This document shows, in pieces, positions 11,885 through 35,526 of a stretch of DNA of 51,257 nt. The position numbers and the translations under genes were made by a program. Source of the stretch: a virus; the IMG/VR virus record IMGVR_UViG_3300032665_000045, positions 1-51,257 of that record. The stretch is one strand, 5' to 3'. Below the pieces are notes generated by a model that did no database searches, was not told the DNA's origin, and saw only the letters and a list, made by a program, of their open reading frames with translations. Position 1 is the first letter of the stretch; each line of letters opens with the position of its first letter.

Positions 11885-12010
11885 TAATTTTTTACCGTTT
11901 GTAAAATTCTACTCAAAAGTGAGTTAATTTACTTCCTAATTCATTGAGTGTCTTATGACTGCTCTCCAAAGGAGTTAATTCCCCATAACGGATGGGTATT
12001 TTTAATATTT
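11885..12010 (-). ncRNA. Candidate omega/re-RNA at the 3' end of tnpB copy 1
   Basis: The last ~75 bp of the gene (minus strand) contain CTCC-TTT-GGAG and the run GAGCAGTCATAAGACACTCA. These are largely conserved at the nucleotide level in tnpB copy 2 (28850-28915). Immediately after the stop region is a hairpin ACTCA-CTTT-TGAGT, absent from copy 2. In IS200/IS605 elements the TnpB guide RNA overlaps the tnpB 3' end, so this is where it would lie. Exact ends are unknown. Confidence 0.4.
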
Positions 12011-13130
12011 TTAGACCTTCTTGTTCTATATTAATAGCAGCATTTAAATCTCTATCATGGATTATTCCACAATCAGAACAAGTCCATTCACGATCTGACA
12101 ATTTAAGTTCATGTTTAATAAAACCACAATCTGAACATGTTTTACTTGAAGGAAAAAATCTATCTATATTTATAATATCACGTCCATATAAAATAGATTT
12201 ATATTTAAGAATTTTTTCGAATCTTCCTAAGTTTAACTCACTTATTGAACGAGCCAATTTATGATTTTTCATCATTCCTTTTACATTTAAGTCTTCCATG
12301 CATATAACTTGATTTTCGTTTAATAATGTATTTATTACTTTATGTAAATAATTCTCTTTGATATTTGTTAAGCGTTGATGAAAACGTGCCAAACGTTTTC
12401 TTGCTTTTTCTTTATTCTTACCGCCTTTCTTTTTTCTTGAATGTTGTTTTTGAAGTTTGCTTAATTTCTTTTGATTATTTCTAATTGTCTTGATATTTTC
12501 AAATTTTTGTCCTTTTGAAGTTATTACAAAATCTTTAATACCTAAATCTATACCTATTATATCATTTTTTGGTTTATCTAATTCTTTTAGAAGGTCACCA
12601 TCAATTAATATACTTAAATAAAACTCATTAGATTTATTTTTAGATAAGGTAGCAGATCTTATATTTGATTGATTTTTAATCAAATAATTAATATATTTGT
12701 TAGATGTCTTAAACTTTAGATCTTTTAATTGTTTTGTTAAGGTTATCTTTGATTTAATAAAATTTTGTTTTCTTGATATAGTATCTATCGGAAATCTACA
12801 AGATAATTTATCTTTTTTTGATTTAAACTTTGGGAATCCATTACCTTGTTTAAAAAATCTTGAATAAGCATCTAACATATCTATAATTGATTGTTTTAAT
12901 ACTTTAGTATTATATTCTTGAAGCCAAGAAAATTCAGGATTTTTTGTTAAATCATTATGAAAATATTTACCTAAACTTGATAAGTTGTGGTTGATTTTTA
13001 AATCATCATAATCGGTTTTTTTGAGATTAAGACACTTATTATACACAAATCTACATGAACCTAAAAGCATATTAATATAAACTTCTTGTTTTTTATTTGG
13101 ATATAGCCTTAATTTAACCGCTTTTAACAT
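11913..13130 (-). CDS. tnpB: TnpB (IS200/IS605-type RNA-guided nuclease), copy 1
   Basis: Full-length 405-aa TnpB. RuvC residues are intact: GIDLG (D195), MED (E279) and HDRDLNAA (D361). The zinc ribbon is complete (CSDCG at 332-336 and CSDCG at 351-355). The N-terminus LRLYPNKKQEVYINMLLGSCR is typical. No TnpA transposase or clear left end is next to it, so it is a stand-alone tnpB, probably behaving like a homing-type nuclease. It shares most of its sequence with the gene at 28843. The ATG follows a TTTTAATATATA box. Confidence 0.93.
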   Translation of the reverse strand: MLKAVKLRLYPNKKQEVYINMLLGSCRFVYNKCLNLKKTDYDDLKINHNLSSLGKYFHNDLTKNPEFSWLQEYNTKVLKQSIIDMLDAYSRFFKQGNGFPKFKSKKDKLSCRFPIDTISRKQNFIKSKITLTKQLKDLKFKTSNKYINYLIKNQSNIRSATLSKNKSNEFYLSILIDGDLLKELDKPKNDIIGIDLGIKDFVITSKGQKFENIKTIRNNQKKLSKLQKQHSRKKKGGKNKEKARKRLARFHQRLTNIKENYLHKVINTLLNENQVICMEDLNVKGMMKNHKLARSISELNLGRFEKILKYKSILYGRDIINIDRFFPSSKTCSDCGFIKHELKLSDREWTCSDCGIIHDRDLNAAINIEQEGLKILKIPIRYGELTPLESSHKTLNELGSKLTHF

Positions 13131-17425: not shown

Positions 17426-19324
17426 TTATTTTTTAGAAATTAATTCAAATTTGATTTTACCACAGTCATATATTTTGTTGATGCCTAGATTTTCCATAAT
17501 TTGAGATTCTGTTAAAGATATATCATGACCTAATTTTTGAAGTTTATTTTTAGTAAAATTTTGTTTAGATTTTCTTATGTTATCAACAATATATTTATAG
17601 TCAGGTTTAGATTCACTTAAAAGATTAAAACCTAATTTAAAGTAGAGATTTCCATTAGACCAATCTTTATCAGCATAACTAATAATCCTTTTAGGTTTGT
17701 TTTCTTTAATAAAGTAATTTAATAATTTAGATGCCCCACCTACAACATTAGTGTTTAATAAATTACAAAATCTATTTAAATTCCAACCTGATTCTTCCAT
17801 ATTTAAACGTCCTTCTTTTTTATCAAAACACATTAAACTAACTAAAACTCCATTATGGTAAAGACCATATGCTTTATTACAAACAACAAATCCTTGTATA
17901 TGATTTTGATTTAAAAAATTTCTATATTCTTCTACATTTACTATTTGTTTCACCAAGCATTTTCGAGCATATATTTTAGTTTTAGTAATTCCTAACCAAT
18001 TATTTATTTGAGATTTAATTATATTTAAATTATTATCAAAATCATCTTCATAAATAAATTTTATGTCAATTTGACGTTCTTTAAAATAATTCAATTTATT
18101 AATATGATAATTTGAATCTTTGAATTTTTCAGAATGCCAGTATAATCCATTAAATTCTATGCCTAATTTAAGATCAGGTAAATATATATCTATTTCTATA
18201 CCATCACGATATCCTGAAATAATTTCTCCATTATAAATTGATTTAATATATTCTAATAAAATCTTTTCTTTAATAGATTTGTTATCCCCTATGGGATAAC
18301 AAATCGTACAAAGTGGTAAATTTGTTTTTGATCTTCCATGGAAATTATCACAATTAATTTCAAATTCATGATCTTTATTTAAATCACATTTAAATATAGA
18401 AGTATAATTATTTATATATTTAATATAATTAGGATGTTGACCTATTATAGTATTTATTTTACTTTCTTCTGATTTTTTATAATTATCTACACCATATTTA
18501 TTTATATTTGAATCTTTTGATTTAGTTAAATAATCTTCACTTTTTATGTAGAATTCAACCCCATATTTTTCTAAATTTGTTTGTTTAATTTTTTCTTTAA
18601 TTTCTTCATTTTGAAAAACGTTAACAACCCCATATTTTTCTAAATTTGTTTGTTTAATTTTTTCTTTAATTTCTTCATTTTGAAAAACGTTAACAACCCC
18701 ATACTTTTCTAAATTAGTTTCTTTTATTCTATCTTTAAAAGTATTGGTTTTAGAATAATGTTCAACTCCATATTTTTCTAAATTAGTTTGTTTAAAATTA
18801 TTTAAATATTCTTTAGTTTTAGAATAATTTTCAACACCATATTTATCTAAATTAGTTTGTTTAATTTTTTCCTTACATTCAGAAGTTTTAGAATAATACT
18901 CAATCCCGTATTTTTCTAAGTTAGTTTCTTTAATTTTATTTTTAAATTTTTCAACTTTCATAGGGTTATCAACTCCGTATTTTTCTAAATTAGTTTGTTT
19001 GCCTTTTTCTTTAATAATTTTATTTTGTGTAGGATTTTCAACACCATATTTATCTAAATTAGTTAATTTATTTTTTTCTTGAGAACATTTACCTTTACAA
19101 CTATAAAAATTATAGTTACCAATATTTTTATTATATAAATAATATTGAGTCTTTTTTTCTATTCCACAAATATCACAAACAACATCAACTTCTATAAGGG
19201 AAGTTGATTTTAAGTGAATTATATCAAATTCAATAGTATTATCATTAGAATTATAAACACCTTTGTCTAAATAATATTTATAATGACTTTTATTTGGTAC
19301 TATAATTTTTTTAGTAATTAGCAT
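17426..19324 (-). CDS. NLEKYGV-repeat homing-endonuclease-like protein, copy 1 (632 aa)
   Basis: Four parts are visible. (1) N-terminal zinc-ribbon-like segment, CDIC (50-53) and CKGKC (76-80). (2) Nine ~23-residue repeats with the core TNLEKYGV (about 88-295), a likely modular DNA-recognition array. (3) A PD-(D/E)XK/Vsr-like nuclease segment: GYRDGIEIDIYLPDLK, IEFNGLYWHS, and YHINK with EDDF. (4) A GNAT-like C-terminal domain (GGASKLL, IISYADKDW, NGNLYFKLGF). Four relatives are in the window. They sit between unrelated phage genes, as free-standing homing endonucleases do. The target is unknown. Confidence 0.8.
   Translation of the reverse strand: MLITKKIIVPNKSHYKYYLDKGVYNSNDNTIEFDIIHLKSTSLIEVDVVCDICGIEKKTQYYLYNKNIGNYNFYSCKGKCSQEKNKLTNLDKYGVENPTQNKIIKEKGKQTNLEKYGVDNPMKVEKFKNKIKETNLEKYGIEYYSKTSECKEKIKQTNLDKYGVENYSKTKEYLNNFKQTNLEKYGVEHYSKTNTFKDRIKETNLEKYGVVNVFQNEEIKEKIKQTNLEKYGVVNVFQNEEIKEKIKQTNLEKYGVEFYIKSEDYLTKSKDSNINKYGVDNYKKSEESKINTIIGQHPNYIKYINNYTSIFKCDLNKDHEFEINCDNFHGRSKTNLPLCTICYPIGDNKSIKEKILLEYIKSIYNGEIISGYRDGIEIDIYLPDLKLGIEFNGLYWHSEKFKDSNYHINKLNYFKERQIDIKFIYEDDFDNNLNIIKSQINNWLGITKTKIYARKCLVKQIVNVEEYRNFLNQNHIQGFVVCNKAYGLYHNGVLVSLMCFDKKEGRLNMEESGWNLNRFCNLLNTNVVGGASKLLNYFIKENKPKRIISYADKDWSNGNLYFKLGFNLLSESKPDYKYIVDNIRKSKQNFTKNKLQKLGHDISLTESQIMENLGINKIYDCGKIKFELISKK
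18557..18694. repeat. Exact 69-bp tandem duplication inside endonuclease copy 1
   Basis: Two identical 69-bp units (18557-18625, 18626-18694) encode one 23-residue NLEKYGV unit each (VVNVFQNEEIKEKIKQ...). No base differs, so this is a recent unit duplication. Confidence 0.9.
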
Positions 19325-19328
19325 TAAT

Positions 19329-20024
19329 TTATTTTCTTTTATATATTATTTCATCAATTATTCCATAATCTTTAGCTTCTTTAGCACTCAGCCAATAATC
19401 TCTATCACCGTCTTTTAATACTTTATTATAATCTTGTCCTGTGCTTTCAGAAATTATAGTGTATAATTCTTTTTTTAAGTGATTAATTTCTTTTGCTTCA
19501 ATTTCTATTTCGATTGCTTGTGAAAAACCTAAAAATCCAGATGGTTGATGTATCATAACTCTTGAACGTTTTAATGATTTTCTTTTTCCTTTAGCCCCTG
19601 AACATAAAATTATAGCCCCCATTGAAGCTGCTAATCCAGTATTAATTGTACATACATCTGGTTTTATATATTCAATTGTATCTAATAATCCTAAACCATC
19701 ATACACACTACCTCCTGGACTGTTTATATATAAATTTATATCTTTATTTGGGTCTAGTTGTTCTAGATAAATTAGTTGTGCTTTGAGAATATCACATAAC
19801 ATATCATCAATTTCTCCAGATAGAAATAAGATTCTATCATCTAATAATTTAGTAAAAACATCTACATAACCACCTGTTCTATCATCAGATATTATAGGGG
19901 ATACATTATTTTTATGGTATTTAATATAAGATTGTGGTATTTTTTTACTTATTAAGTATTTTTCAAAATCCTTCATATTATTTTTTATTTTCATATAATT
20001 TTTTTCAAAAAAGTTTAAAAACAT
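19329..20024 (-). CDS. clpP: ClpP-like serine protease
   Basis: ClpP fold with an intact triad: GLAASMG (S134), MIHQPSG (H159) and DRDYWLSAKEA (D209). NSPGGSVYDGLGLLDTI (101-117) is the oxyanion-side motif. At 231 aa it has an extra ~40 N-terminal residues compared with bacterial ClpP; internal Met11 or Met17 (MKDFEKYL) are alternative starts. It is wedged between two endonuclease genes with 3-4 bp gaps. In a phage this may be a prohead/maturation protease or a proteolytic tool against the host; the nearby acidic scaffold-like genes favour the former. Confidence 0.92.
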   Translation of the reverse strand: MFLNFFEKNYMKIKNNMKDFEKYLISKKIPQSYIKYHKNNVSPIISDDRTGGYVDVFTKLLDDRILFLSGEIDDMLCDILKAQLIYLEQLDPNKDINLYINSPGGSVYDGLGLLDTIEYIKPDVCTINTGLAASMGAIILCSGAKGKRKSLKRSRVMIHQPSGFLGFSQAIEIEIEAKEINHLKKELYTIISESTGQDYNKVLKDGDRDYWLSAKEAKDYGIIDEIIYKRK

Positions 20025-20027
20025 TAA

Positions 20028-21914
20028 TTATATAGTTAATTCAAATTTCATTTTACCACAGTCGTAAATTTTGTTAATACCTAAATTATCCATAATTTGA
20101 GATTCTGTTAAAGATATATCATGCCCTAATTTTTGAAGTTTGGATTTTGTAAAATTTTGTTTAGACTTTCTAATATTATCAACAATATATTTATAATCAG
20201 GCTTAGATTCATTAACTAATTTAAACCCTAATACTTTATATAAATTACCATTAGACCAATCTTTATCGGCATAACTTATGATTCGTGAAGGGTTATTTTC
20301 TCTAATAAAATGATTTAATAATTTTGATGCTCCTCCTATTATTTGATGGTTTAACAAATTACAAAATCTATTTAAATTCCACTCATTTTCAGACATATTT
20401 AAACGTCCTTCTTTTTTATCAAAACACATTAAACTAACTAAATTATTATTATAATAAAGTCCATAAACTAATTTAGAAGCAACAAAACCTTGAATATGAT
20501 TTTGATTTAAAAAATCTCTATATTCTTCTGTACTAACTTTTTTAATAAGAGTTTTTCTTGCATAAATTTTAGTTTTAGATAATCCTAACCAATTATTAAT
20601 TTGAGATTTAATTATATCTAAATTATTATCAAAGTCATCTTCCCAAATAAATTTTATATCAATATCATTTCCTTTAAAGTATTCTTTTTTATTTATATGA
20701 TAGTAATTTTCTTTAAATTTATTAGAATGCCAGTAAAGACCATTAAATTCTATACCAATCTTAATTTCAGGTAAATATATATCTATTTCAATTCCATCTC
20801 TATACCCTGAAATAATCTCTCCGTTATAGATACTTTGAATATATTCTAATAAAATTTTTTCTTTAATAGATTTATTATCATTAATAGGATAACAAATAGT
20901 ACATAAAGGTATATTTTGATTATTTCTACTATGGAAATTATCAACATGTATTTCAAATTCATGATCTTTATTTAAATCACATTTAAATAAAGATCTATTA
21001 TTATCTATATATTTTATATAATAATTGTTATTTGATATGATATAACTATATCGGCTTTCTTCAGATTTTTTATAAATATCAACCCCATATTTTTCTAAAT
21101 TAGTTTGTTTAAGTTTATTTAATATATTTATATTTTGTAATACATGTTCAACTCCATATCTATTTAAATTAGTTTTAACAATTTTATCATTACATTCTTT
21201 AGTTTGTGAATAATATTCAACCCCATATCTATTTAAATTAGTTTTAACAATTTTATCATTACATTCTTCTGTTTTTCTATAGTTATCCACCCCATATTTA
21301 TTTAAATTAGTTTGTTTAACTTTTTGTTTATATTCTTCTGTTTTCGAATAGTATTCAGACCCATATTTTTCTAAATTAGTTTGTTTAACGGATTTATTAT
21401 AAAATTCAGTTTGTGAAATATGTTCAACTCCATATTTTTCTAAATTAGTTTGCTTAACTTTTTCTTTATATTCATCAGTTTTTGAATAATGAGAACCAAA
21501 TTTATCTATATTAGTTTGTTTAATTTTTTCTTTTATATCATTATTTTGTGAAACATGTTCAACTCCATATTTTTCTAAATTAGTTTGCTTAACTTTTTCT
21601 TTTATATCTTTGTTTTGTTGAACAAACTCAACTCCATATTTTTCTAAATTAGTTTTTTTAGTCTTTATTAGACTGCATTTTTTACTACAAGAAAAAATAT
21701 TATATTTTTTAATATTTTCATTATAGTTTTTAAAAGATATTTTTTTTTTATTATTACAAATATCACATTCTGCTTCAATTAAAGTTGAAGCATTTTTTCG
21801 CAAAATGGATATATCAATTTCTATTGTATTTTTTTCTTTGTTTAAAACCCCTTTGTCTAAATAGTATTTAGAATATTTAGAAATAGGTATTATAATATTT
21901 TTTGTTATTAGCAT
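20028..21914 (-). CDS. NLEKYGV-repeat homing-endonuclease-like protein, copy 2 (628 aa)
   Basis: Same architecture as the copy at 17426. It has a CDIC...CSKKC zinc-ribbon-like N-terminus, nine repeats (including diverged TNIDKFG and TNLNRYGV units), the Vsr-like nuclease core with IEFNGLYWHS, and the GNAT-like end with LTESQIMDNLGINKIYDCGK. The C-terminal half is much more conserved between copies than the repeat array, consistent with selection for different targets. The ATG is preceded by a TTTTTTAATATATA box. Confidence 0.8.
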   Translation of the reverse strand: MLITKNIIIPISKYSKYYLDKGVLNKEKNTIEIDISILRKNASTLIEAECDICNNKKKISFKNYNENIKKYNIFSCSKKCSLIKTKKTNLEKYGVEFVQQNKDIKEKVKQTNLEKYGVEHVSQNNDIKEKIKQTNIDKFGSHYSKTDEYKEKVKQTNLEKYGVEHISQTEFYNKSVKQTNLEKYGSEYYSKTEEYKQKVKQTNLNKYGVDNYRKTEECNDKIVKTNLNRYGVEYYSQTKECNDKIVKTNLNRYGVEHVLQNINILNKLKQTNLEKYGVDIYKKSEESRYSYIISNNNYYIKYIDNNRSLFKCDLNKDHEFEIHVDNFHSRNNQNIPLCTICYPINDNKSIKEKILLEYIQSIYNGEIISGYRDGIEIDIYLPEIKIGIEFNGLYWHSNKFKENYYHINKKEYFKGNDIDIKFIWEDDFDNNLDIIKSQINNWLGLSKTKIYARKTLIKKVSTEEYRDFLNQNHIQGFVASKLVYGLYYNNNLVSLMCFDKKEGRLNMSENEWNLNRFCNLLNHQIIGGASKLLNHFIRENNPSRIISYADKDWSNGNLYKVLGFKLVNESKPDYKYIVDNIRKSKQNFTKSKLQKLGHDISLTESQIMDNLGINKIYDCGKMKFELTI

Positions 21915-21919
21915 AATAT

Positions 21920-21933
21920 TATATATTAAAAAA
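21920..21933 (-). promoter_or_regulatory. TTTTTTAATATATA box before endonuclease copy 2
   Basis: Minus strand, ending 5 bp before the ATG at 21914. Confidence 0.45.
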
Positions 21934-22000
21934 GATTAAAAAGATTAAAAACGAATATTTAATAATAATATATATACTATAATTAAAAAAAAATAATATT

Positions 22001-22324
22001 ATGAAAACAACAATCGAAATTAATGGTTACGAAGTAGTAATTGAAGAAACAGAAGGTGTTTTAACAGTTAAAGCTCAAAAAGACGAAGAAACAATCGAAG
22101 AATTTGAAATTGACACTACAGAAGAAGGTGAAGGCGAAGGCGTTCAAGCTTTTGGTGAAGGTGAAGATGACGAAGATTTTGAAGATGAAGATGGTGAAGA
22201 CTTCGGTGATGAAGACGGAGAAGACTTTGGTGACGAAGAATTTGAAGAAGGTGAAGAATCAGCTCAAGACGAAGAAGAAACTAAATTAGAATCTTTCAAT
22301 TCTTTTATCAAAAAAAGAAAATAA
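22001..22324 (+). CDS. Acidic scaffold-like protein 1, 107 aa
   Basis: After a short folded-looking N-terminus (MKTTIEINGYEVVIEETEG) the protein becomes an Asp/Glu/Gly/Phe repeat region (EDGEDFGDEDGEDFGDEEF) and ends DEEETKLESFNSFIKKRK. Strong acidity with a small basic tail is like T4 prohead core proteins. The tail is shared almost exactly with the gene at 24250, separated from it only by endonuclease copy 3. It is probably an internal head or scaffold component, by inference only. Confidence 0.7.
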   Translation: MKTTIEINGYEVVIEETEGVLTVKAQKDEETIEEFEIDTTEEGEGEGVQAFGEGEDDEDFEDEDGEDFGDEDGEDFGDEEFEEGEESAQDEEETKLESFNSFIKKRK

Positions 22325-22332
22325 TTTCTTAT

Positions 22333-22370
22333 TAAATAAGACTTCGCTAATTATAGTGGAGTCTTATTTA
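22333..22370. terminator. Terminator between acidic gene 1 and endonuclease copy 3
   Basis: AAATAAGACT...AGTCTTATTT stem (10 bp plus a G-U extension) with a long loop, placed between the convergent stops. Confidence 0.6.
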
Positions 22371-24189
22371 ATTTCTTAATTAATTCAAATTTCATTTTTC
22401 CACAGTCATAGATTTTGTTAATGCCTAAATTATCCATAATTTGAGATTCTGTTAAAGATATATCATGCCCTAATTTTTGAAGTTTGGATTTTGTAAAATT
22501 TTGTTTAGATTTTCTAACATTATCAACTATATATTTATAATCGGGTTTAGATTCATTAACTAATGTAAATCCTAATTTAAAATATAAATTACCATTAGAC
22601 CAATCTTTATCAGCATAGCTAATTATTCTTGAAGGGTTATTTTGTTTAATAAAGTGATTTAAAAGTTTTGATGCACCACCAATTACTTGATAATTTAATA
22701 GATTACAGAATCTATTTAAATTCCATTCTCCTTCTTTCATATTTAACCTTCCTTCTTTTTTATCAAAACACATTAAACTAACTAATTCATTGTTATAATA
22801 AAGACCATAAGCTTTATTACAAGTAACAAATCCTTGAATATGATTATTATTTAAAAAATTTCTATACTCATCTACATTTTCAATTTGTCTAACTTTTGTT
22901 TTACGAGCATAAATTTTATTAGATAATCCTAACCAATTATTAATTTGAGATTTAATTATATCAAAATTATTATCAAAATCATCTTCATAAATAAATTTAA
23001 GATTTATATTTTTTTCTTTAAAATATATTTGCTTATTAATATGATAATTAGATTCTTTAAACTTATTAGAATGCCAGTAAAGACCATTAAATTCTATGCC
23101 TAATTTTAATTCAGGTAAGAAAATATCAATTTCTATACCATCTCTATATCCACTAATAATTTGACCTGAATAAATAGTTTTTATGTACTCTAAAAGGATT
23201 TTTTCTTTAATAGATTTTTGATCATTAATTGGATAACAAATCGTACAAATAGGTAAATTAGAATTTATTCTACTATAAAAATTATCACCATAAATTTGAA
23301 ATTCATGATCTTTATTTAAATCACATTTAAATAAAGATATTCTATCATTTAGATATTTAATATAATTAGGATGATTTGATATTATGAAATTTTCTCTACT
23401 TTCTTCTGATTTAGAAAAATTATCAACCCCATATTTTTCTAAATTGGTCTGTTTAATTTTTTCTTTAATTTGATTATTTTGGAAGGTAAATTCAACACCA
23501 TATTTTTCTAAATTAGAATTTTTAGTTTTTATTAAACATTCTTTTGTTTTAGCATAGTTATCAACATCATATTTTTCTAAATTAGTTTTTTTACTTTTTT
23601 CTTTAATTATATTGGATTGAGAAGCAAATTTTACTCCATATTTCTCTAAATTGGTTTTTTTTAATTTATCTTGAATTTCTTTGCTTTGTAAAGCATGTTC
23701 CACTCCATATTTCTCTAAATTGGTTTTTTTTAATTTATCTTGAATTTCTTTGCTTTGTAAAGCATGTTCCACTCCATATTTCTCTAAATTGGTTTGTTTA
23801 ATTTTTTGTTTAATTTTTTCATTTTGTGAAATATTTTCCACTCCATATTTTTCTAAATTAGTTTTTTTTGATTTATCTTGAATTTCTTTGCTTTGTAAAA
23901 CATATTCCACTCCATATTTTTCTAAATTAGTTTTTTTCCTTTTAATACTACAACATTTATTACAAGTATATATACTATTATTTTTAATATTTTTAATATA
24001 CAAAAAATATTTTGTTTTTTTCTTTATTTCACATATGTCACATTTTACTTCAACTTCTATTTTAGAATTTAGATTTAAATATTTAAGTTCAAATTCTAAA
24101 GTATTATCATCATAATTCATTACTCCTTTACTAAGGTATTTTTTATATTGTTTATTATAATTTATTTTTATAATTTTAGTAATTAACAT
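22351..24189 (-). CDS. NLEKYGV-repeat homing-endonuclease-like protein, copy 3 (612 aa)
   Basis: Eight repeats, two of them identical (VEHALQSKEIQDKLKK), a CDIC...CNKCC N-terminus, the nuclease segment EIDIFLPELKLGIEFNG with YWHS, and the GNAT-like C-terminus ending after YDCGKMKFEL with a short extra tail. It lies exactly between the two acidic paralogues, so its insertion may have accompanied their duplication. A TTAATATATATTAATA stretch precedes the ATG. Confidence 0.8.
   Translation of the reverse strand: MLITKIIKINYNKQYKKYLSKGVMNYDDNTLEFELKYLNLNSKIEVEVKCDICEIKKKTKYFLYIKNIKNNSIYTCNKCCSIKRKKTNLEKYGVEYVLQSKEIQDKSKKTNLEKYGVENISQNEKIKQKIKQTNLEKYGVEHALQSKEIQDKLKKTNLEKYGVEHALQSKEIQDKLKKTNLEKYGVKFASQSNIIKEKSKKTNLEKYDVDNYAKTKECLIKTKNSNLEKYGVEFTFQNNQIKEKIKQTNLEKYGVDNFSKSEESRENFIISNHPNYIKYLNDRISLFKCDLNKDHEFQIYGDNFYSRINSNLPICTICYPINDQKSIKEKILLEYIKTIYSGQIISGYRDGIEIDIFLPELKLGIEFNGLYWHSNKFKESNYHINKQIYFKEKNINLKFIYEDDFDNNFDIIKSQINNWLGLSNKIYARKTKVRQIENVDEYRNFLNNNHIQGFVTCNKAYGLYYNNELVSLMCFDKKEGRLNMKEGEWNLNRFCNLLNYQVIGGASKLLNHFIKQNNPSRIISYADKDWSNGNLYFKLGFTLVNESKPDYKYIVDNVRKSKQNFTKSKLQKLGHDISLTESQIMDNLGINKIYDCGKMKFELIKKLNKTPL
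23641..23778. repeat. Exact 69-bp tandem duplication inside endonuclease copy 3
   Basis: Units 23641-23709 and 23710-23778 are identical and each encodes one 23-residue repeat of the recognition array. Confidence 0.9.
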
Positions 24190-24249
24190 ATTTTTTAATT
24201 ATATTATATTAATATATATTAATAGTTCAAAAAATAAAAAATAACGAAT

Positions 24250-24408
24250 ATGAGAATAATGAAATTTAACGAAGAAGGTGAAGAAGGTGAAGATGGTGAC
24301 ATCAAAGCTTTTGGAGACGAAGAAGGTGGCGATGACTTCGGTGGAGCTCCACAAGATGAAGAAACTAAATTAGAATCTTTCAATTCTTTTATCAAAAGAA
24401 GAAATTAA
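24250..24408 (+). CDS. Acidic scaffold-like protein 2, 52 aa
   Basis: ATG at 24250 (or the second Met at 24259, MKFNEE) to TAA at 24408. It starts MRIMKFNEEGEEGEDGD, continues with AFGDEEGGDDFGG, and ends DEETKLESFNSFIKRRN. Order and motifs match acidic protein 1 in shortened form (AFG, DDF, then the same basic tail). Unlike protein 1, it also has a capsid-targeting-like N-terminus (M-K-F-N-E). Confidence 0.7.
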   Translation: MRIMKFNEEGEEGEDGDIKAFGDEEGGDDFGGAPQDEETKLESFNSFIKRRN

Positions 24409-24437
24409 TTTCTCATTAAATAATGAGAAATTAATTT
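24402..24437. terminator. 17-bp stem terminator after acidic gene 2
   Basis: AAATTAATTTCTCATTA pairs perfectly with TAATGAGAAATTAATTT around a 2-nt loop, starting inside the last codons of the gene. Confidence 0.7.
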
Positions 24438-24470
24438 AATAAGAGTTACTAAATAAGAAGGTTTTTATTT

Positions 24471-26018
24471 TTATAAAGTTAGTTCAAATTTCATTTTACC
24501 ACAATCATAGATTTTATTAATACCTAAATTTTCCATAATTTTAGATTCTGTTAAAGATATATCATGACCTAATTTAGATAGTTTAGCTTTTGTAAAATTT
24601 TGTTTAGATTTTCTTAATCCATCAATGACGTATTTATAATCAGGTTTAGATTCATTAACTAACGTAAATCCTAATGTAAAATATAAATTTCCATTAGACC
24701 AATCTTTATCAGCATAACTAATAATTCTTTTAGGATTATTAGTTTTTATAAAATAGTTTAATAATTTAGAAGCTCCTCCAATAACATTGGTATTTAATAA
24801 ATTACAAAATCTATTCAAATTCCATTCATTATCAGACATGTTTAATCTTCCTTCTTTTTTATCAAATGACATTAAACTAACTAATTGATTTTGATAATAT
24901 AATCCATATACTAATTTAGAAGGAACAAACCCTTGAATATGATTCTTATTTAAGAAATTTTTATATTCATCTACACTTATTACTTGTTTAAGTTCAGTTT
25001 TACGAGCATATATTTTATTATCAGTTATGCCTAACCAATTAGATATTTGAGATTTTATAATATCTAAATTAGTATTAAAATCATCCTCATAAATAAATTT
25101 TATATCTATACCTTTTCCTTTAAACCAATTTAATTTATTAAGATGATAATTAGATTCTTTAAATTTATTAGAGTGCCAGTAAAGACCATTAAATTCTATA
25201 CCTAACTTTAATTCAGGTAAATAAATATCAATTTCTATACCATCTCTATAACCGCTAATTATTTCTCCATTATATATGGATTTAATATATTCTAAAAGTA
25301 TTTTTTCTTTAATAGATTTTTGATCTCCAATAGGATAGCAAATTGTACAAAGAGGTATATTATAATTTACTCTGCTAAGAAAATTATAAATATGAATTTC
25401 AAATTCATGGTCTTTATTTAAATCACATTTAAATAAAGATAAACCTTCATTAATATATTTAATATAATTTGGATGTTGACCTAATTTTGTGTTTAATTTG
25501 CTTTCTTCAGATTTTTTATAATTGTCAACTCCAAATTTTTTTAAATTAATTTTTCTAATTTTTTCTTTGAATTTTTCAGTTTTAGAAAAATACTCAACTT
25601 TATATTTCTCTAAATTAGTTTTTTTAGCTTTTTCTATAATTTTTTCATTTTTTGATGCGTTTTCTACACCATATTTTTTAAAATTGGTTTTATTAGCTTT
25701 TTCTCTAATTTCTTTAACTTTTGATGGATTGTCAACACCATAATTTTCTAAACAAGTTTTTTTCTTTTTTATATTAGAACATTGTCCATGACAAGAATAA
25801 AAATTATATTTTTTTATATTCTTTAAATATAATCCATAAGGTGTCTTTATTTGTTTTAAACAAATATCACATATCACCTCAATGATTATTGTTGAACTAG
25901 GTTTTAAATGAATTATATCAAACTCAATAGTATTATTTATGGTATTTATAGTACCAATATTTCTATAACATATATGTTGTCCTTTATTTGGAACTTTTAT
26001 TGTTTTTGTAATTAACAT
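24471..26018 (-). CDS. NLEKYGV-repeat homing-endonuclease-like protein, copy 4 (515 aa)
   Basis: A shorter relative with only four, more degenerate repeats (TCLENYGV, TNFKKYGV, TNLEKYKV, INLKKFGV). The CDIC...CHGQC N-terminus, the nuclease segment (GIEIDIYLPELK, IEFNGLYWHS) and the GNAT-like C-terminus are intact. The length difference from its relatives is essentially the missing repeats, showing that the array can gain or lose units without loss of the rest. Confidence 0.8.
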   Translation of the reverse strand: MLITKTIKVPNKGQHICYRNIGTINTINNTIEFDIIHLKPSSTIIIEVICDICLKQIKTPYGLYLKNIKKYNFYSCHGQCSNIKKKKTCLENYGVDNPSKVKEIREKANKTNFKKYGVENASKNEKIIEKAKKTNLEKYKVEYFSKTEKFKEKIRKINLKKFGVDNYKKSEESKLNTKLGQHPNYIKYINEGLSLFKCDLNKDHEFEIHIYNFLSRVNYNIPLCTICYPIGDQKSIKEKILLEYIKSIYNGEIISGYRDGIEIDIYLPELKLGIEFNGLYWHSNKFKESNYHLNKLNWFKGKGIDIKFIYEDDFNTNLDIIKSQISNWLGITDNKIYARKTELKQVISVDEYKNFLNKNHIQGFVPSKLVYGLYYQNQLVSLMSFDKKEGRLNMSDNEWNLNRFCNLLNTNVIGGASKLLNYFIKTNNPKRIISYADKDWSNGNLYFTLGFTLVNESKPDYKYVIDGLRKSKQNFTKAKLSKLGHDISLTESKIMENLGINKIYDCGKMKFELTL

Positions 26019-28842: not shown

Positions 28843-30078
28843 TTAATTTTTTAATTTAAAACTTCCTAATTCACTGAGTGTCTCATGACTGCTCTCCAAA
28901 GGCGTTAATTTCCCATCATGAATGGGTATTTTATTTTTATATAATTCTAAATAGATTTTTAGACCTTCTTGTTCTATATTAATAGAAGCATTTAAGTCTC
29001 TATCATGAATTATTCCACAATCAGGACATATCCATTCACGATCTGATAATTTTAAATCGTGGTTAATATAACCACAATCCGAACAAGTTTTAGAACTTGG
29101 GAAATATCTATCTATATTTATTACTTGACGATTATACCAATTAGATTTATATTTAAGTATTGTTTCAAATCTATAAAGACTTAATTCACTTATTGAGCGA
29201 GCCAATTTATGATTTTTTAATAATCCTTTAACATTTAAATCTTCCATACATATAACTTGATTTTCGTTTAATAATGTATTGACTATTTTATGTAAATAAT
29301 TTTCTTTGATATTGGTTAATCTTTGGTAAAAACGTGCCAAACGTTTTCTTGCTTTTTCTTTATTTTTACTTCCTTTTTTCTTTCTACTATGCTGTTTTTG
29401 TAAAGAACTTAATTTTTCCTGATTATTTCTAATTGTCTTGATGTTTTCAAACTTTTCTCCTTTTGATGTGATAACAAAATCTTTAATTCCTAAATCTATA
29501 CCTATAGAAAAATTATTAGGATTATCTAAAGTTTTAATTAAATCTCCATCAATTAATATACTCAAATAGTATTCATTAGATTTATTTTTAGATAAAGTTG
29601 CTGATCTTATATTTGATTGATTTTTTATCAAATAATTAATATATTTGTCAGATGTCTTAAACTTTAGATCTTTTAACTGCTTTGTTAATTTAATCTTGCT
29701 TTTTAAAAAATCTTGTTTTTTAGAAATTGCTTCATAAGTAAATCTACAAGATAATTTATCTTTTTTAGATTTAAACTTTGGAAATCCATTCTTCTGTTTA
29801 AAGAATCTTGAATAAGCATCTAACATATCAATTAAAGATTGATTAAATACTTTGGTATTATGCTCTTTTAACCATTCAAAATTAGGATTTTTAACTAATT
29901 CATTTCTAAAAAACTTATCTAAAGTTGATAAATTATGATTAATTTTTAGTTCTTTATAATCATTAATTTTTTTGTTAAGACATTGATTATATATAAATCT
30001 ACATGAACCTAATAACTTATTAATATAAACTTCTTGATCTTTAGTTGGATATAATCTTAATTTAATAGCTCTTAACAT
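28843..30078 (-). CDS. tnpB: TnpB (IS200/IS605-type RNA-guided nuclease), copy 2
   Basis: 411-aa paralogue of the gene at 11913, with catalytic GIDLGIKDF, CMEDLNVKG and HDRDLNASINI and the zinc ribbon CSDCG/CPDCG intact. It carries a short insertion near the C-terminus (IYLELYKNK) absent from copy 1. The two DNAs diverge abruptly right after the conserved GAATTAGGAAGT at the 3' end, which marks the probable element boundary. The upstream 25 bp are the same in both copies. No tnpA is present. Confidence 0.93.
   Translation of the reverse strand: MLRAIKLRLYPTKDQEVYINKLLGSCRFIYNQCLNKKINDYKELKINHNLSTLDKFFRNELVKNPNFEWLKEHNTKVFNQSLIDMLDAYSRFFKQKNGFPKFKSKKDKLSCRFTYEAISKKQDFLKSKIKLTKQLKDLKFKTSDKYINYLIKNQSNIRSATLSKNKSNEYYLSILIDGDLIKTLDNPNNFSIGIDLGIKDFVITSKGEKFENIKTIRNNQEKLSSLQKQHSRKKKGSKNKEKARKRLARFYQRLTNIKENYLHKIVNTLLNENQVICMEDLNVKGLLKNHKLARSISELSLYRFETILKYKSNWYNRQVINIDRYFPSSKTCSDCGYINHDLKLSDREWICPDCGIIHDRDLNASINIEQEGLKIYLELYKNKIPIHDGKLTPLESSHETLSELGSFKLKN
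28850..28930 (-). ncRNA. Candidate omega/re-RNA at the 3' end of tnpB copy 2
   Basis: Nucleotide-level conservation with the 3' end of copy 1 is stronger here than protein function requires: the minus strand has CCTTTGGAGAGCAGTCATGA and ACACTCAGTGAATTAGGAAG. The CTCC/GGAG hairpin of copy 1 is CGCC/GGAG here, weakening one pair. Confidence 0.35.
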
Positions 30079-30417: not shown

Positions 30418-30468
30418 ATGGATAAATATAATAACTATTTTTTAATACATACTTTATATGAATTTTAA
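30418..30468 (+). CDS. 16-residue leader ORF overlapping the RuvC-nuclease start
   Basis: ATG at 30418 to TAA at 30468 encodes MDKYNNYFLIHTLYEF and overlaps the nuclease ATG at 30458 in another frame. It could couple or dampen translation of the nuclease. It is very short, so chance is possible. Confidence 0.25.
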   Translation: MDKYNNYFLIHTLYEF

Positions 30469-32053
30469 TGATTCAAATATAATAACTTTAAAAATAAAAA
30501 TTAAATCATTTTCAAATGAAAAACTGATAGATGATAAGATCTTTATGTATACTGGTTGTTATAATTATCTTTATAAATGTTTTGAACAGATTAGTGATAA
30601 ACAATTCTTTAAAGAAACAATGTTAAAATTTAATGTAAATGACACTGAATTAGATTCTATTGTCAGTCAAATTAAAATTAAAAAAGATACTGAAATAACT
30701 AATAATAAAAAGAAATTAAATAGAATTGAAGAACTTTATAAATCAATAGAAAGTTTAAATAATAATAAAAATATTTTTAAATGGACTCAAAAAATAGAAT
30801 TTCTAAAAAAATCTATTAAAAATAATGAAGTTTTTGGTAAAAGATCTTTATTACAATCCATAACTAAAGACGCTAACAAAGGTATTAGAGATTCTAAGAA
30901 AATTAGAGAATGGAAAGAAAGTAGAAAAAGAAATATTTATATAGTTGGCGAAGCAAATCAAAAAGGTAATAGATTCGTTAAATTTAATCTTTTAGAAAAT
31001 AATGTTGAATATAGACCTAAACATGGCTTAAAATGTGTAATAGAACTTCATAAATATAAAGATAAAAGAATTGATTTTAATAAACTTCAATACTTAATTG
31101 ATAATAAAGAAATTTCTATAACAACAACAATTAATAAAGAATATATTTGCTTAACATTTGATCTAAATTCTTATTTAGGAATTAACCAAAGATTAAAAGA
31201 AATTAAATCAAATCTTCAAAAAGAGATTAAAGAAAAGTTTATAACTGATAAACAAGTTATTAAAGATATGTATTCTGTTGAATATAAGAAATTAGAACAA
31301 GAATTATCAATTAAAAAGATTAAAAATAGATATTGTTCAATTGATATGAATCCTGATGGAATTGGTATTTCTATATTTGATTCAAAAAATGATAAGCAAA
31401 TCTTTTTAGAAAAATTCTATATAGATTATTCAAAAAATAACTTAAATTTGAAATTATCAACAGAACATCAATTAAACCTTAAACAAACTAATAAACGTAA
31501 AGCTGAAATACTTTATTCACTATCAAGATTATTTGAAAAATTAAGACATTATCAAGTTTACAACTTTGTTATGGAAGAACTTAATTTTACTGATATTGAT
31601 GGTAAAAAAGTTAATAATATAAAAATAAATAACGTATGGAATAAAGACCTTATAATCAGGAAAATTAAAAAAGAGATTTGTTTATCAGGAATGAATTTAA
31701 TAGAGGTTAATCCGATATATACAAGTTTCATAGGGAATATACAACATGAAGAATTTGATCCAATTGCCGCCTCAATAGAGATTGGTAGAAGAGGATTTAA
31801 TAAATATAAAAAAGGAAGTAGTTTCTACCCAAAAATTTTAATTAAAGATATTGACACTTTGGAATTAATAACTAATAAAAAGTTATTAAATGATGCTCAA
31901 AATTTAAATGATTTAAATTGGAAATTACTTTACAAAAACTACTCAAAATTTAGATGGCGTAGGTCTTTAAGTAATTTTAATTACAAAAAGATTAGGATAG
32001 GTAATAAATTATCAAAAACAAAATTAATTTATAAATTATATGATTCTAAATAA
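30458..32053 (+). CDS. TnpB/Cas12-like RuvC nuclease without zinc finger, 531 aa
   Basis: A split RuvC site is readable: YCSIDMNPDGIGISIF (D296), NFVMEELNF (E373/E374) and EEFDPIAASIEIGRRGF (D434), with PIYTSFIGN before the last motif, as in TnpB/Cas12-like families. Unlike the two canonical TnpBs here, there is no CxxC pair between the second and third RuvC motifs. The N-terminal half is long and lysine-rich, with probable coiled-coil around 70-150 (recognition-lobe-like). The gene overlaps the primase start by 14 bp, so the two are co-translated. No transposase or CRISPR array is nearby. Confidence 0.75.
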   Translation: MNFNDSNIITLKIKIKSFSNEKLIDDKIFMYTGCYNYLYKCFEQISDKQFFKETMLKFNVNDTELDSIVSQIKIKKDTEITNNKKKLNRIEELYKSIESLNNNKNIFKWTQKIEFLKKSIKNNEVFGKRSLLQSITKDANKGIRDSKKIREWKESRKRNIYIVGEANQKGNRFVKFNLLENNVEYRPKHGLKCVIELHKYKDKRIDFNKLQYLIDNKEISITTTINKEYICLTFDLNSYLGINQRLKEIKSNLQKEIKEKFITDKQVIKDMYSVEYKKLEQELSIKKIKNRYCSIDMNPDGIGISIFDSKNDKQIFLEKFYIDYSKNNLNLKLSTEHQLNLKQTNKRKAEILYSLSRLFEKLRHYQVYNFVMEELNFTDIDGKKVNNIKINNVWNKDLIIRKIKKEICLSGMNLIEVNPIYTSFIGNIQHEEFDPIAASIEIGRRGFNKYKKGSSFYPKILIKDIDTLELITNKKLLNDAQNLNDLNWKLLYKNYSKFRWRRSLSNFNYKKIRIGNKLSKTKLIYKLYDSK

Positions 32054-33200
32054 AGCATATATAATAAACACGATACAAGATATAGTCAATAAAAAGTCAA
32101 ATAATCCAAATAGAAGGAAAATTGTCGTTTATAACGACAGAATTAACTTCTGTTGTCCAGTATGTGGTGATTCAACTAAAAATGACCGAGCAAAAAGAGG
32201 TAATTTATATTTTGATAAATTATTCTTTATTTGTTTTAATGATGGTTGTAAAGGTAGTTTATTGTCCTTATGTAAAACTTTTGATATTCAAATAGATTTA
32301 GATAAAAAATTAGAATTAATAGATTATATCAGTAAAGATATAACATATAATGATTATAAAAATTCTGATTTATCTGATGCTAATTTAGACCATTTATTAG
32401 ATTTATCTGCTATAACTGAAATATTTTCTACAGGGGAACATAATATAACTGATTTTCAACCTGTTCAAAAAAATAGTGTAATATACAATTATTTAGTAGG
32501 TAGAGGTATTTTTGATGAAAAACATACAAACATATATGAAGCTAATTATTGGAATAAAAATCGGTATGAACCTATTGTTTGTTTTTTGAATAGAAAAGAT
32601 GATAAAGTATTAGGTATTCAAATAAGAAATATTAAAGATGGGAAATATAGATGGTTTAAAATATTTAATTATGAAACTTTGGCTAAATGGGTAAATAAAG
32701 TCGATGAATTAGATATGGATATTAATGATATTATACTAAATAATAAATTAAGTCAGTATTTTAATATATTAAATGTTAGTTTTTATAATCAAATAACTAT
32801 ATTTGAAGGATTTATAGATTCTTTGTTTTATCCTAATGCTATTGGATGTTGTGGTACAAATACTGATTTTCGTTTTTTAGAAACAAATGAATTAGATATT
32901 CAGTATTTTTTTGATAATGATACAGCAGGTCATTCAAAATCAGAGGAGAAAATAAAAGCAGGTTATCCTGTTTTCTTATGGAAGAAATTATTTGAAGATG
33001 TTATTAAGAAGAAAAATCCTGAAGATCCGTATGCTATGATGAAAAGAATTAGTCAAATAAAAGACTTAAATAAATTAAGTCAATTAATAAAAAATCCATA
33101 TTCATCTTTAAGACTAAATAATTTCTTTAGTCAAGATGATATGGATCTTAGATATATTCCTAAAAAAGAGAGAAAATACTTTAGAAAAAAGGATATTTAA
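32040..33200 (+). CDS. DNA primase (T4 gp61 / DnaG-type)
   Basis: The N-terminal zinc-binding domain has C39, C42 (CPVCGDS), C65 and C70 (CFNDGC). The Toprim core shows IFEGFIDSLFY with the catalytic Glu and YFFDNDTAG with the Asp pair. At 386 aa it is slightly longer than T4 gp61 (342 aa). The replicative helicase is not in the window. The start lies inside the upstream nuclease gene, and its 3' end overlaps the convergent HNH gene by 20 bp. Confidence 0.92.
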   Translation: MILNKAYIINTIQDIVNKKSNNPNRRKIVVYNDRINFCCPVCGDSTKNDRAKRGNLYFDKLFFICFNDGCKGSLLSLCKTFDIQIDLDKKLELIDYISKDITYNDYKNSDLSDANLDHLLDLSAITEIFSTGEHNITDFQPVQKNSVIYNYLVGRGIFDEKHTNIYEANYWNKNRYEPIVCFLNRKDDKVLGIQIRNIKDGKYRWFKIFNYETLAKWVNKVDELDMDINDIILNNKLSQYFNILNVSFYNQITIFEGFIDSLFYPNAIGCCGTNTDFRFLETNELDIQYFFDNDTAGHSKSEEKIKAGYPVFLWKKLFEDVIKKKNPEDPYAMMKRISQIKDLNKLSQLIKNPYSSLRLNNFFSQDDMDLRYIPKKERKYFRKKDI

Positions 33201-33657
33201 TCTTTTTATATTTTGGATTTTTGTATCGTAAATATTCAAAGAAATCGGAATCTGATTTTTCTGAATTACATTTTTTACAACACGCAATTAGATTAACTTT
33301 AACATTAGTTCCACATTTTGAAATAGGAACTATATGATCTGTAGTGGCATTTTCAAGGTTTAGTTTTTTCTCACAGTAGATACATCTTGCATCTTCATTG
33401 CTAAGAACAAATTCTTTAGCAAATCCGTTAGTTCTACGTTTAACATTTTTACCTGACCATTTTAAGCCAACTACTACAAAGTTATTATCTAGTTTAAATT
33501 TTTTGCGGAATATTTCGCAATAGACATAATTTTTGTTTAATTTAATCATTAACCAAATAAGTAGTCTTAATTTTCTGAATGTAGCAAAAGGCACCGATAA
33601 ATAATGTGGTGTTTTTGCTTGATAAATCCCTTTTAGGATTCTGAAATATTTAATCAT
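33181..33657 (-). CDS. HNH endonuclease
   Basis: A canonical HNH core lies in the C-terminal third: CIYCEKK, TDHIVPIS and the Asn, then CCKKCNSEKSD, giving two zinc-binding CxxC pairs. A GTG at 33705 opens the frame, but the ATG at 33657 (MIKYFRILKGIY) is the better start. The N-terminal half is basic (KLRLLIWLMIKLNK) and may bind DNA. It is probably a free-standing homing endonuclease placed at the end of the primase gene. Confidence 0.85.
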   Translation of the reverse strand: MIKYFRILKGIYQAKTPHYLSVPFATFRKLRLLIWLMIKLNKNYVYCEIFRKKFKLDNNFVVVGLKWSGKNVKRRTNGFAKEFVLSNEDARCIYCEKKLNLENATTDHIVPISKCGTNVKVNLIACCKKCNSEKSDSDFFEYLRYKNPKYKKIKYPFF

Positions 33658-33723
33658 ATTAGCAACGCTATATTTTATATATATTTTATATGTATGAAAA
33701 TACACAAAAAATAATTTATATGT

Positions 33724-35120: not shown

Positions 35121-35339
35121 TTATATTATTTTTATTTCTAAAATTGACTCTCTTGTTATATCAGGAGGGAAGACAATGAATCTATCATCAATCCACATTT
35201 CAAAAGATGTCTCGTAGAAATTTTTAGATTTTTCTATTATAAGTTCATAGTCTTCATCACTTACCTCTAATTCTGAGGATTCGTATTCAAACCATTTATT
35301 TTTTAATATAATCTTAATTAAAATAGTTTTTTTATTCAT
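35121..35339 (-). CDS. Hypothetical protein, 72 aa
   Basis: ATG at 35339 (MNKKTILIKIILKN); an in-frame TTG lies two codons upstream. Acidic and aromatic (EYESSELEVSDEDYELIIEK). It lies 4 bp before the YkuK-like gene, so it is probably one transcript with it. No family recognised. Confidence 0.55.
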   Translation of the reverse strand: MNKKTILIKIILKNKWFEYESSELEVSDEDYELIIEKSKNFYETSFEMWIDDRFIVFPPDITRESILEIKII

Positions 35340-35385
35340 AAACAATTAATATGTGATTTTTTATGTTTAAATTCCTTAAAAACAA

Positions 35386-35526
35386 CTAAATCCGTTGAAA
35401 CTTTATATAATTTTCTTTTAATTTTTTAAAAGAAAATCTAACAACATTGGAATATTCTTTTCTTAATAAATTTAACTTTTCTTGAAATTCATTAGATGAT
35501 TTATATGGTAATTTTATCGTTATCAT
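35386..35526 (-). pseudogene. Possible N-terminal remnant of a TnpB-like nuclease, 46 codons
   Basis: An ATG at 35526 opens MITIKLPYKSSNEFQEKLNL, continuing LRKEYSNVVRFSFKKLKEN and stopping at 35386. The pattern (strand ITIKL, then a helix LRKEY-x-x-VVRFSF) resembles the N-terminus of phage TnpB-like proteins, comparable with ITLKIKIKSF...YNYLYKCFEQ of the gene at 30458. Nothing resembling the rest of such a protein follows. It could also be a genuine small gene. The rest of 35346-35655 holds only AT-rich sequence and the terminator. Confidence 0.35.

Follow-up and report, generated by a model that had tools for sequence, protein, structure and literature searches.

A zinc-ribbon-less TnpB gene at the start of a viral primase gene: a candidate RNA-guided homing element of a phage-adapted clade

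TnpB nucleases and the locus under study

TnpB is the ancestor of the Cas12 nucleases, and TnpB, IS607 elements and TnpB homing are all known. The subject of this study is a tnpB gene in IMG/VR virus record IMGVR_UViG_3300032665_000045, positions 1 to 51,257, a stretch of 51,257 nucleotides that is here called the window. All coordinates are positions in the whole window unless a comparison locus (labels such as L057) is named. The gene (30458..32053, + strand) encodes a 531-amino-acid TnpB without a zinc ribbon, overlaps the start of a DNA primase gene and is proposed to be part of an inserted element that spreads by RNA-guided homing. Published TnpB clade schemes and structures feature a zinc finger (PMC10278001, PMC10432273), which was present in the structures and clades of both TnpB and Fanzor in the literature examined and which in ISDra2 TnpB is of the CCCC type (PMC10432273). 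The main TnpB clades carry RuvC-III motifs such as DRDXN or NADXN, and their omegaRNA consists of a scaffold followed by a guide derived from the flank (PMC10278001). This RNA, also termed right-element RNA (reRNA), is located at the 3' end of tnpB in typical TnpB and in ISFba1 (PMC10278001; PMC11061315).

Two further systems invite comparison. ISCaje4 of Campylobacter phages was named in 2010 and filed there under IS200/IS605 (PMC2853527). T4-like phages harbour free-standing homing endonucleases (seg, mob), several of which overlap a neighbouring open reading frame (ORF) (PMC2988022). Like the window gene, these are intergenic selfish nuclease genes located beside conserved and often essential genes. 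They differ in being protein-guided GIY-YIG or HNH enzymes, whereas the fold of the window protein is of the RNA-guided kind, and unlike seg and mob the window element seems to lie within a gene start and to bring a new start codon.

The window protein

The tnpB ORF runs for 531 codons without a stop. The original prediction placed the RuvC residues at D296, E373/374 and D434; D296, E373 and D434 are in place, whereas E374 is not the conserved glutamate. Its claim that the CxxC pairs are missing holds for the whole protein, in which no CxxC occurs anywhere. The C4 zinc ribbon that is typical of TnpB (TNB, PF07282, between RuvC-II and RuvC-III) is missing and the motif YTSFIGN stands where it would be. 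No significant Pfam or PHROG family was found for the protein and none of the PADLOC Cas12 models matched it, while TIGR01766 (TnpB-related) gave a weak match (E 0.001).

The alignment-based AlphaFold model is confident, with a mean predicted local distance difference test score (pLDDT) of 87.6. Its best neighbour in the PDB is Cas12f1 (8hr5, E 8.5e-8), followed by further neighbours that include Cas12k and RuvC resolvases and, further down, the TnpB proteins of ISDra2 (8exa, E 6e-3) and ISFba1 (8iaz, E 8e-3). The predicted structure confirms a RuvC nuclease of the TnpB/Cas12 (Cas12f/TnpB-like) fold with an intact triad, and the triad is not mutated across the relatives in general. ISDra2 TnpB (IS200/IS605) and the IS607 TnpB of ISFba1 share both the Cas12-like fold and the RuvC triad, and the 3' end of the gene is where an omegaRNA would be expected to lie. 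The window protein and its clade differ from typical TnpB in lacking the ribbon, in a RuvC-III motif of the form DPIAASIEI and in being missed by Pfam; because of the absent ribbon the protein is filed as a variant rather than as a typical TnpB.

A zinc-ribbon-less clade of phages

A search of IMG/VR with the window protein alone did not find a close copy, whereas a profile search based on an alignment recovered 110 relatives. Among phage records searched with tblastn, the TnpB of ISCaje4, Lak phages and huge phages match at 26-31% identity. A search of 84,980 prokaryote genomes returned just five matches, and the clade is therefore essentially confined to phages. Among 57 non-redundant members, the window protein included, D296 is conserved in 57, E373 in 56 and D434 in 57. 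The sole exception (L068) has an E-to-K change in IKDL at the position of window E373 and is possibly a dead copy. All 57 lack the zinc ribbon and have Y[ST]S[FI][IV]GN in its place, with the caveat that one of the two search patterns included this motif and the other did not. A Pfam scan of 37 members assigned none to a relevant family, PF07282 included (0/37). The absence of the zinc finger is a trait of the clade and not a peculiarity of the window gene. In Campylobacter phage F379 (L006, 3656-5073) a zinc-less TnpB is spread over two ORFs that overlap, each annotated as a putative endonuclease, and is probably frameshifted.

The clade is mobile and multi-copy: 12 of the 14 clade-carrying records searched hold two to five copies, and the copies neighbour many unrelated genes. 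In roughly a quarter of the non-redundant members the DNA just upstream of tnpB encodes a complete or fragmentary serine recombinase, and at several loci it overlaps the tnpB start or sits just 5' of it. The earlier statement that no transposase is visible is thus correct for the window copy, where the serine recombinase tnpA that marks IS607 is absent, and does not extend to the clade. In the tree the window protein belongs to a subfamily of 15 long members (mostly about 520-575 amino acids; support 0.97) which includes recombinase-bearing members, while its exact sister is placed with a support of 0.27. The window gene is best read as encoding the TnpB of an IS607-derived mobile element that is adapted to phages and lacks a recombinase.

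ISCaje4, which is IS607-type and is carried by Campylobacter phages CP220 and WX1, shares with the window gene the clade, the triad, the C-terminal motif and the 3' hairpins at 29-30% identity, and has YSSFIGN where the window protein has YTSFIGN. It differs in having a serine recombinase and in ending 23 bp past the tnpB stop, and its insertions lie 5' of genes instead of within a start codon. In CP220 the element, recombinase included, is truncated at its 5' end. ISCaje4 occupies different sites in CP220 and WX1, and CPt10, CC_R7 and IBB_35 carry empty alleles. Its right end is GTTTATATCTT, and there is no long duplication. TTTATT is found on the left of both insertions and is plausibly its transposon-associated motif (TAM).

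Probable insertion at the primase start

The primase (32040..33200, +, 386 amino acids; phrog_47, E 8e-22) shares 14 bp with tnpB, and a short leader ORF (30418..30468, +) precedes tnpB and overlaps its start by 11 bp, both as originally described. The primase starts at ATG 32040 with MILNKAYI..., compared with MDKxYI... in its relatives, and has no methionine at the ancestral start position. None of 19 viral loci that encode primases 51-57% identical to it has a tnpB upstream, a comparison that the original prediction had called for. The primase site thus shows a present/absent insertion polymorphism, with the gene in the window and absent from 19 of 19 relatives, these being distant. No zinc-less TnpB was found in any of the 16 records of primase relatives searched, which may themselves be fragments.

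In 18 of the 19 relatives the primase gene starts ATGGATAA(A/G), encoding MDK. The leader ORF, MDKYNNYF... (MDKYNNYFLIHTLYEF, then a stop), starts with ATGGATAAA at 40 bp 5' of tnpB, and this 9-mer has a chance expectation of 0.003 in the 113-bp gap. Past MDK, the similarity of the leader peptide to primase N-termini is not significant (P 0.32). Because ATGGATAAA matches the start of the primases of 18 relatives, the leader ORF is most likely the native primase start (ATG GAT AAA), severed and left upstream of the inserted element. Comparison with the primase N-termini of the 19 element-free relatives gives a proposed element at 30427..32046 (+), with a left end good to about 30 bp and a right end within about 10 bp of the primase start. 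The simplest account is an insertion after about codon 3, with the new ATG supplied by the right end of the element; the uninterrupted primase start would then be ATGGATAAAGCATATATA. The element could instead lie just 5' of a native MILNKAYI start with a coincidental leader, a reading that is unlikely and yet keeps appreciable weight.

A primase-specific partnership was considered and rejected. The relatives' primases lack the gene and the sister elements, like a second copy in the window, adjoin unrelated genes, so that the coupling to primase is an effect of the insertion site. Directly 3' of the primase lies an HNH endonuclease gene (33181-33705, -), and a comparable short gene occupies this position in many of the primase relatives.

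Predicted RNA structure at the 3' end of tnpB

In the clade a stable hairpin A directly follows the codon for the invariant R501, and a hairpin B spans the stop. The mean stability at the hairpin A offset has a z-score of -2.0 across the clade and peaks exactly there. Two groups had sequences enough for a covariation test; pairing in their helices reaches 90% and 87%, and 0 of 500 shuffles matched the covariation score in either. Past hairpin B the copies are conserved up to a sharp boundary (for example after TTTTGTATTTTA) and then diverge, a layout as expected for an omegaRNA scaffold with a flank-derived guide. At L061 (4907-5100) a tRNA-like gene (GCCGACTTAGCTCAGGGG..., read by eye) starts at the right-end boundary of a clade element, so that the predicted guide would fall in the tRNA.

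In the window, hairpin A of the putative omegaRNA (31962..31993, +) lies within the 3' end of tnpB after the R501 codon, at -6.8 kcal/mol and a z-score of -2.45, and 0.8% of the windows of the ORF are equally stable. The expected hairpin B and right end (31997..32046, +), placed by analogy with the relatives, form a weak hairpin that is not significant (z -0.26). An Rfam scan of the window gave no match. Given hairpin A, the earlier remark that no guide source is visible holds only in part. From the known omegaRNA layout of TnpB and the boundaries in relatives, the predicted guide segment would comprise the first primase codons, the flank directly 3' of the element (32047..32066, +).

Right ends that appear to replace gene starts

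Other copies in the clade bear a similar relationship to the gene downstream. The window holds a second, internally deleted zinc-less copy (35336..35526, -; profile E 9.7e-7), 3.3 kb from the intact one, which keeps both ends, namely the N-terminal 46 or so codons and a C-terminal VSTDLVVFKEFKHKKSHINCL followed by the stop. The stop overlaps, as ATGA, the start ATG of a small gene (MNKKTILIKIILKNKW..., 35121..35339, -). At L057, whose right end is AAAGAGGTTGTATTTTG, comparison with element-free relatives (L129-L131 and L134; protein 86-88% identical) shows that the downstream gene has lost its native leader and ATG and instead has the element's AAAGAGGTTGTATT followed directly by TTG (AAAGAGG...TTG). 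At L063 the right end turns the ATG of a gene into TTG, its homologue at L065 starting ATGGCGTTTAATC, and at L074 and L089 the right ends present AAAGGAG...TTG ahead of an ORF. In L132 (about 2450-2510) a bare, right-end scar-like AAAGGAGTTGTATT followed by TTG (AAAGGAGTTGTATTTTG) precedes the same gene as in L057, without tnpB, and appears to serve that gene as ribosome-binding site and TTG start.

Such re-capping of start codons is not universal, since most copies of the L066 group, like ISCaje4, are found in intergenic DNA elsewhere. A possible, and still tentative, explanation is that the ends of the clade evolved to restore translation initiation: the right end would bring a ribosome-binding sequence and/or the base needed to complete a start codon, and so would allow RNA-guided homing inside the starts of essential genes such as primase. 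Of 54 elements, 31 closely precede a + strand gene, a weak indication where genes are packed as densely as in phages, and one that carries no weight here. A general target-site duplication was also considered, with ATGAATAGAAT (L028), ATGAAGGAACT (L065) and ATGGTAAC (L057) on the left and TTG plus the same bases on the right. Over 41 elements 3 were observed against 1.3 expected (P 0.15), and because this excess is not significant no duplication is claimed; a repeat at L089 was discarded because it lies within a terminator-like hairpin.

A model of homing and its alternatives

The window element is likely to home into the primase start by RNA guidance. Processing of the tnpB mRNA at its 3' end would yield an omegaRNA, with the adjoining primase 5' sequence as guide, and the ribonucleoprotein would cut element-free primase genes in co-infecting phages, after which repair of the cut allele would copy the element in. 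The inserted allele would be spared because the element parts the TAM from the target. Primase would remain functional because a new ATG lies in the end of the element, where this overlaps the TnpB stop, and coupled translation of primase could start from it. In this way the element would probably spread between phages much as homing elements do, and leave the essential gene that it enters in working order. In view of established TnpB biology (right-flank guide, left TAM, plasmid gene drive), RNA-guided homing is the parsimonious model. The proposed spread is the same as in the TnpB gene drive demonstrated for IS200/IS605 in plasmids, where element-free copies are cut and element-bearing copies win (PMC11870625), and for the window clade in phages it is a proposal by analogy.

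Several points weigh against this model. Neither a recombinase nor a near-identical copy or empty site was found for the window element (the closest TnpB is 37% and the closest primase 57% identical). The 50 nucleotides before the right boundary fold no better than shuffles and neither the exact right end nor hairpin B is recognised, so that the omegaRNA of the window may be truncated. The severed primase start is suggested by the 9-mer, at a chance of about 0.003, together with the N-terminal comparison, and for the whole clade we infer guide use, cutting, homing and translational coupling by analogy.

A rival reading is a decaying insertion-sequence remnant, an inactive ORF stranded after the loss of its recombinase and complete right end. 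The missing recombinase, the undetectable hairpin B and a sister copy at a distance of 3.3 kb that is clearly dead are all in keeping with it, whereas a stop-free ORF of 531 codons, the full triad, the confident fold and the retained hairpin A make it rather improbable. The original prediction had left the choice between a homing-like parasite of the replication locus and a domesticated nuclease that is co-expressed with primase for a role in replication or against competitors. An operon-like overlap and intact catalytic residues in a TnpB without its own recombinase might be expected of domestication, but the gene occurs in none of the primase relatives found, the decayed second copy overlaps an unrelated gene in the same manner and the sister copies adjoin many others. 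Domestication is accordingly unlikely and does not fit a coupling that mirrors the insertion site, whereas the 19 primase relatives without the gene and the copies beside unrelated genes fit a parasite. TldRs are nuclease-dead TnpB repressors that have lost the RuvC nuclease centre. That the window protein is such a non-cutting, RNA-guided repressor of a target promoter is highly improbable, as its three RuvC residues are intact, as they are in 56 of the 57 clade members.

Other selfish genes of the window

The two canonical TnpBs of the original prediction are present and zinc-bearing. One (28843-30078, -), whose TNB domain is recognised by Pfam at E 1.7e-23, sits a short way upstream of the primase locus, which places two kinds of TnpB within 3.3 kb; the second (11913-13130, -) belongs to phrog_506. 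Four long homing-endonuclease paralogues (phrog_3339/phrog_559) stand in tandem at 17426-26018 (-), an unusual cluster of selfish genes. The window, which also has two HNH genes, is thus rich in selfish nucleases. The 73-amino-acid ORF upstream has no findable relatives.

Implications for TnpB biology

No description of the zinc-less phage clade as such or of start-codon re-capping was found in the open-licence literature, and a prior account elsewhere is possible. A clade that looks active, lacks the zinc finger and escapes Pfam offers a natural test of what purpose the domain serves, and is also a source of compact nucleases. Re-capping, if true, would account for the presence of a selfish nuclease in essential genes without splicing. 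The elements would then be RNA-guided equivalents of introns and inteins that dispense with splicing, and with this architecture homing by RNA guidance can be put to a direct test in phages.
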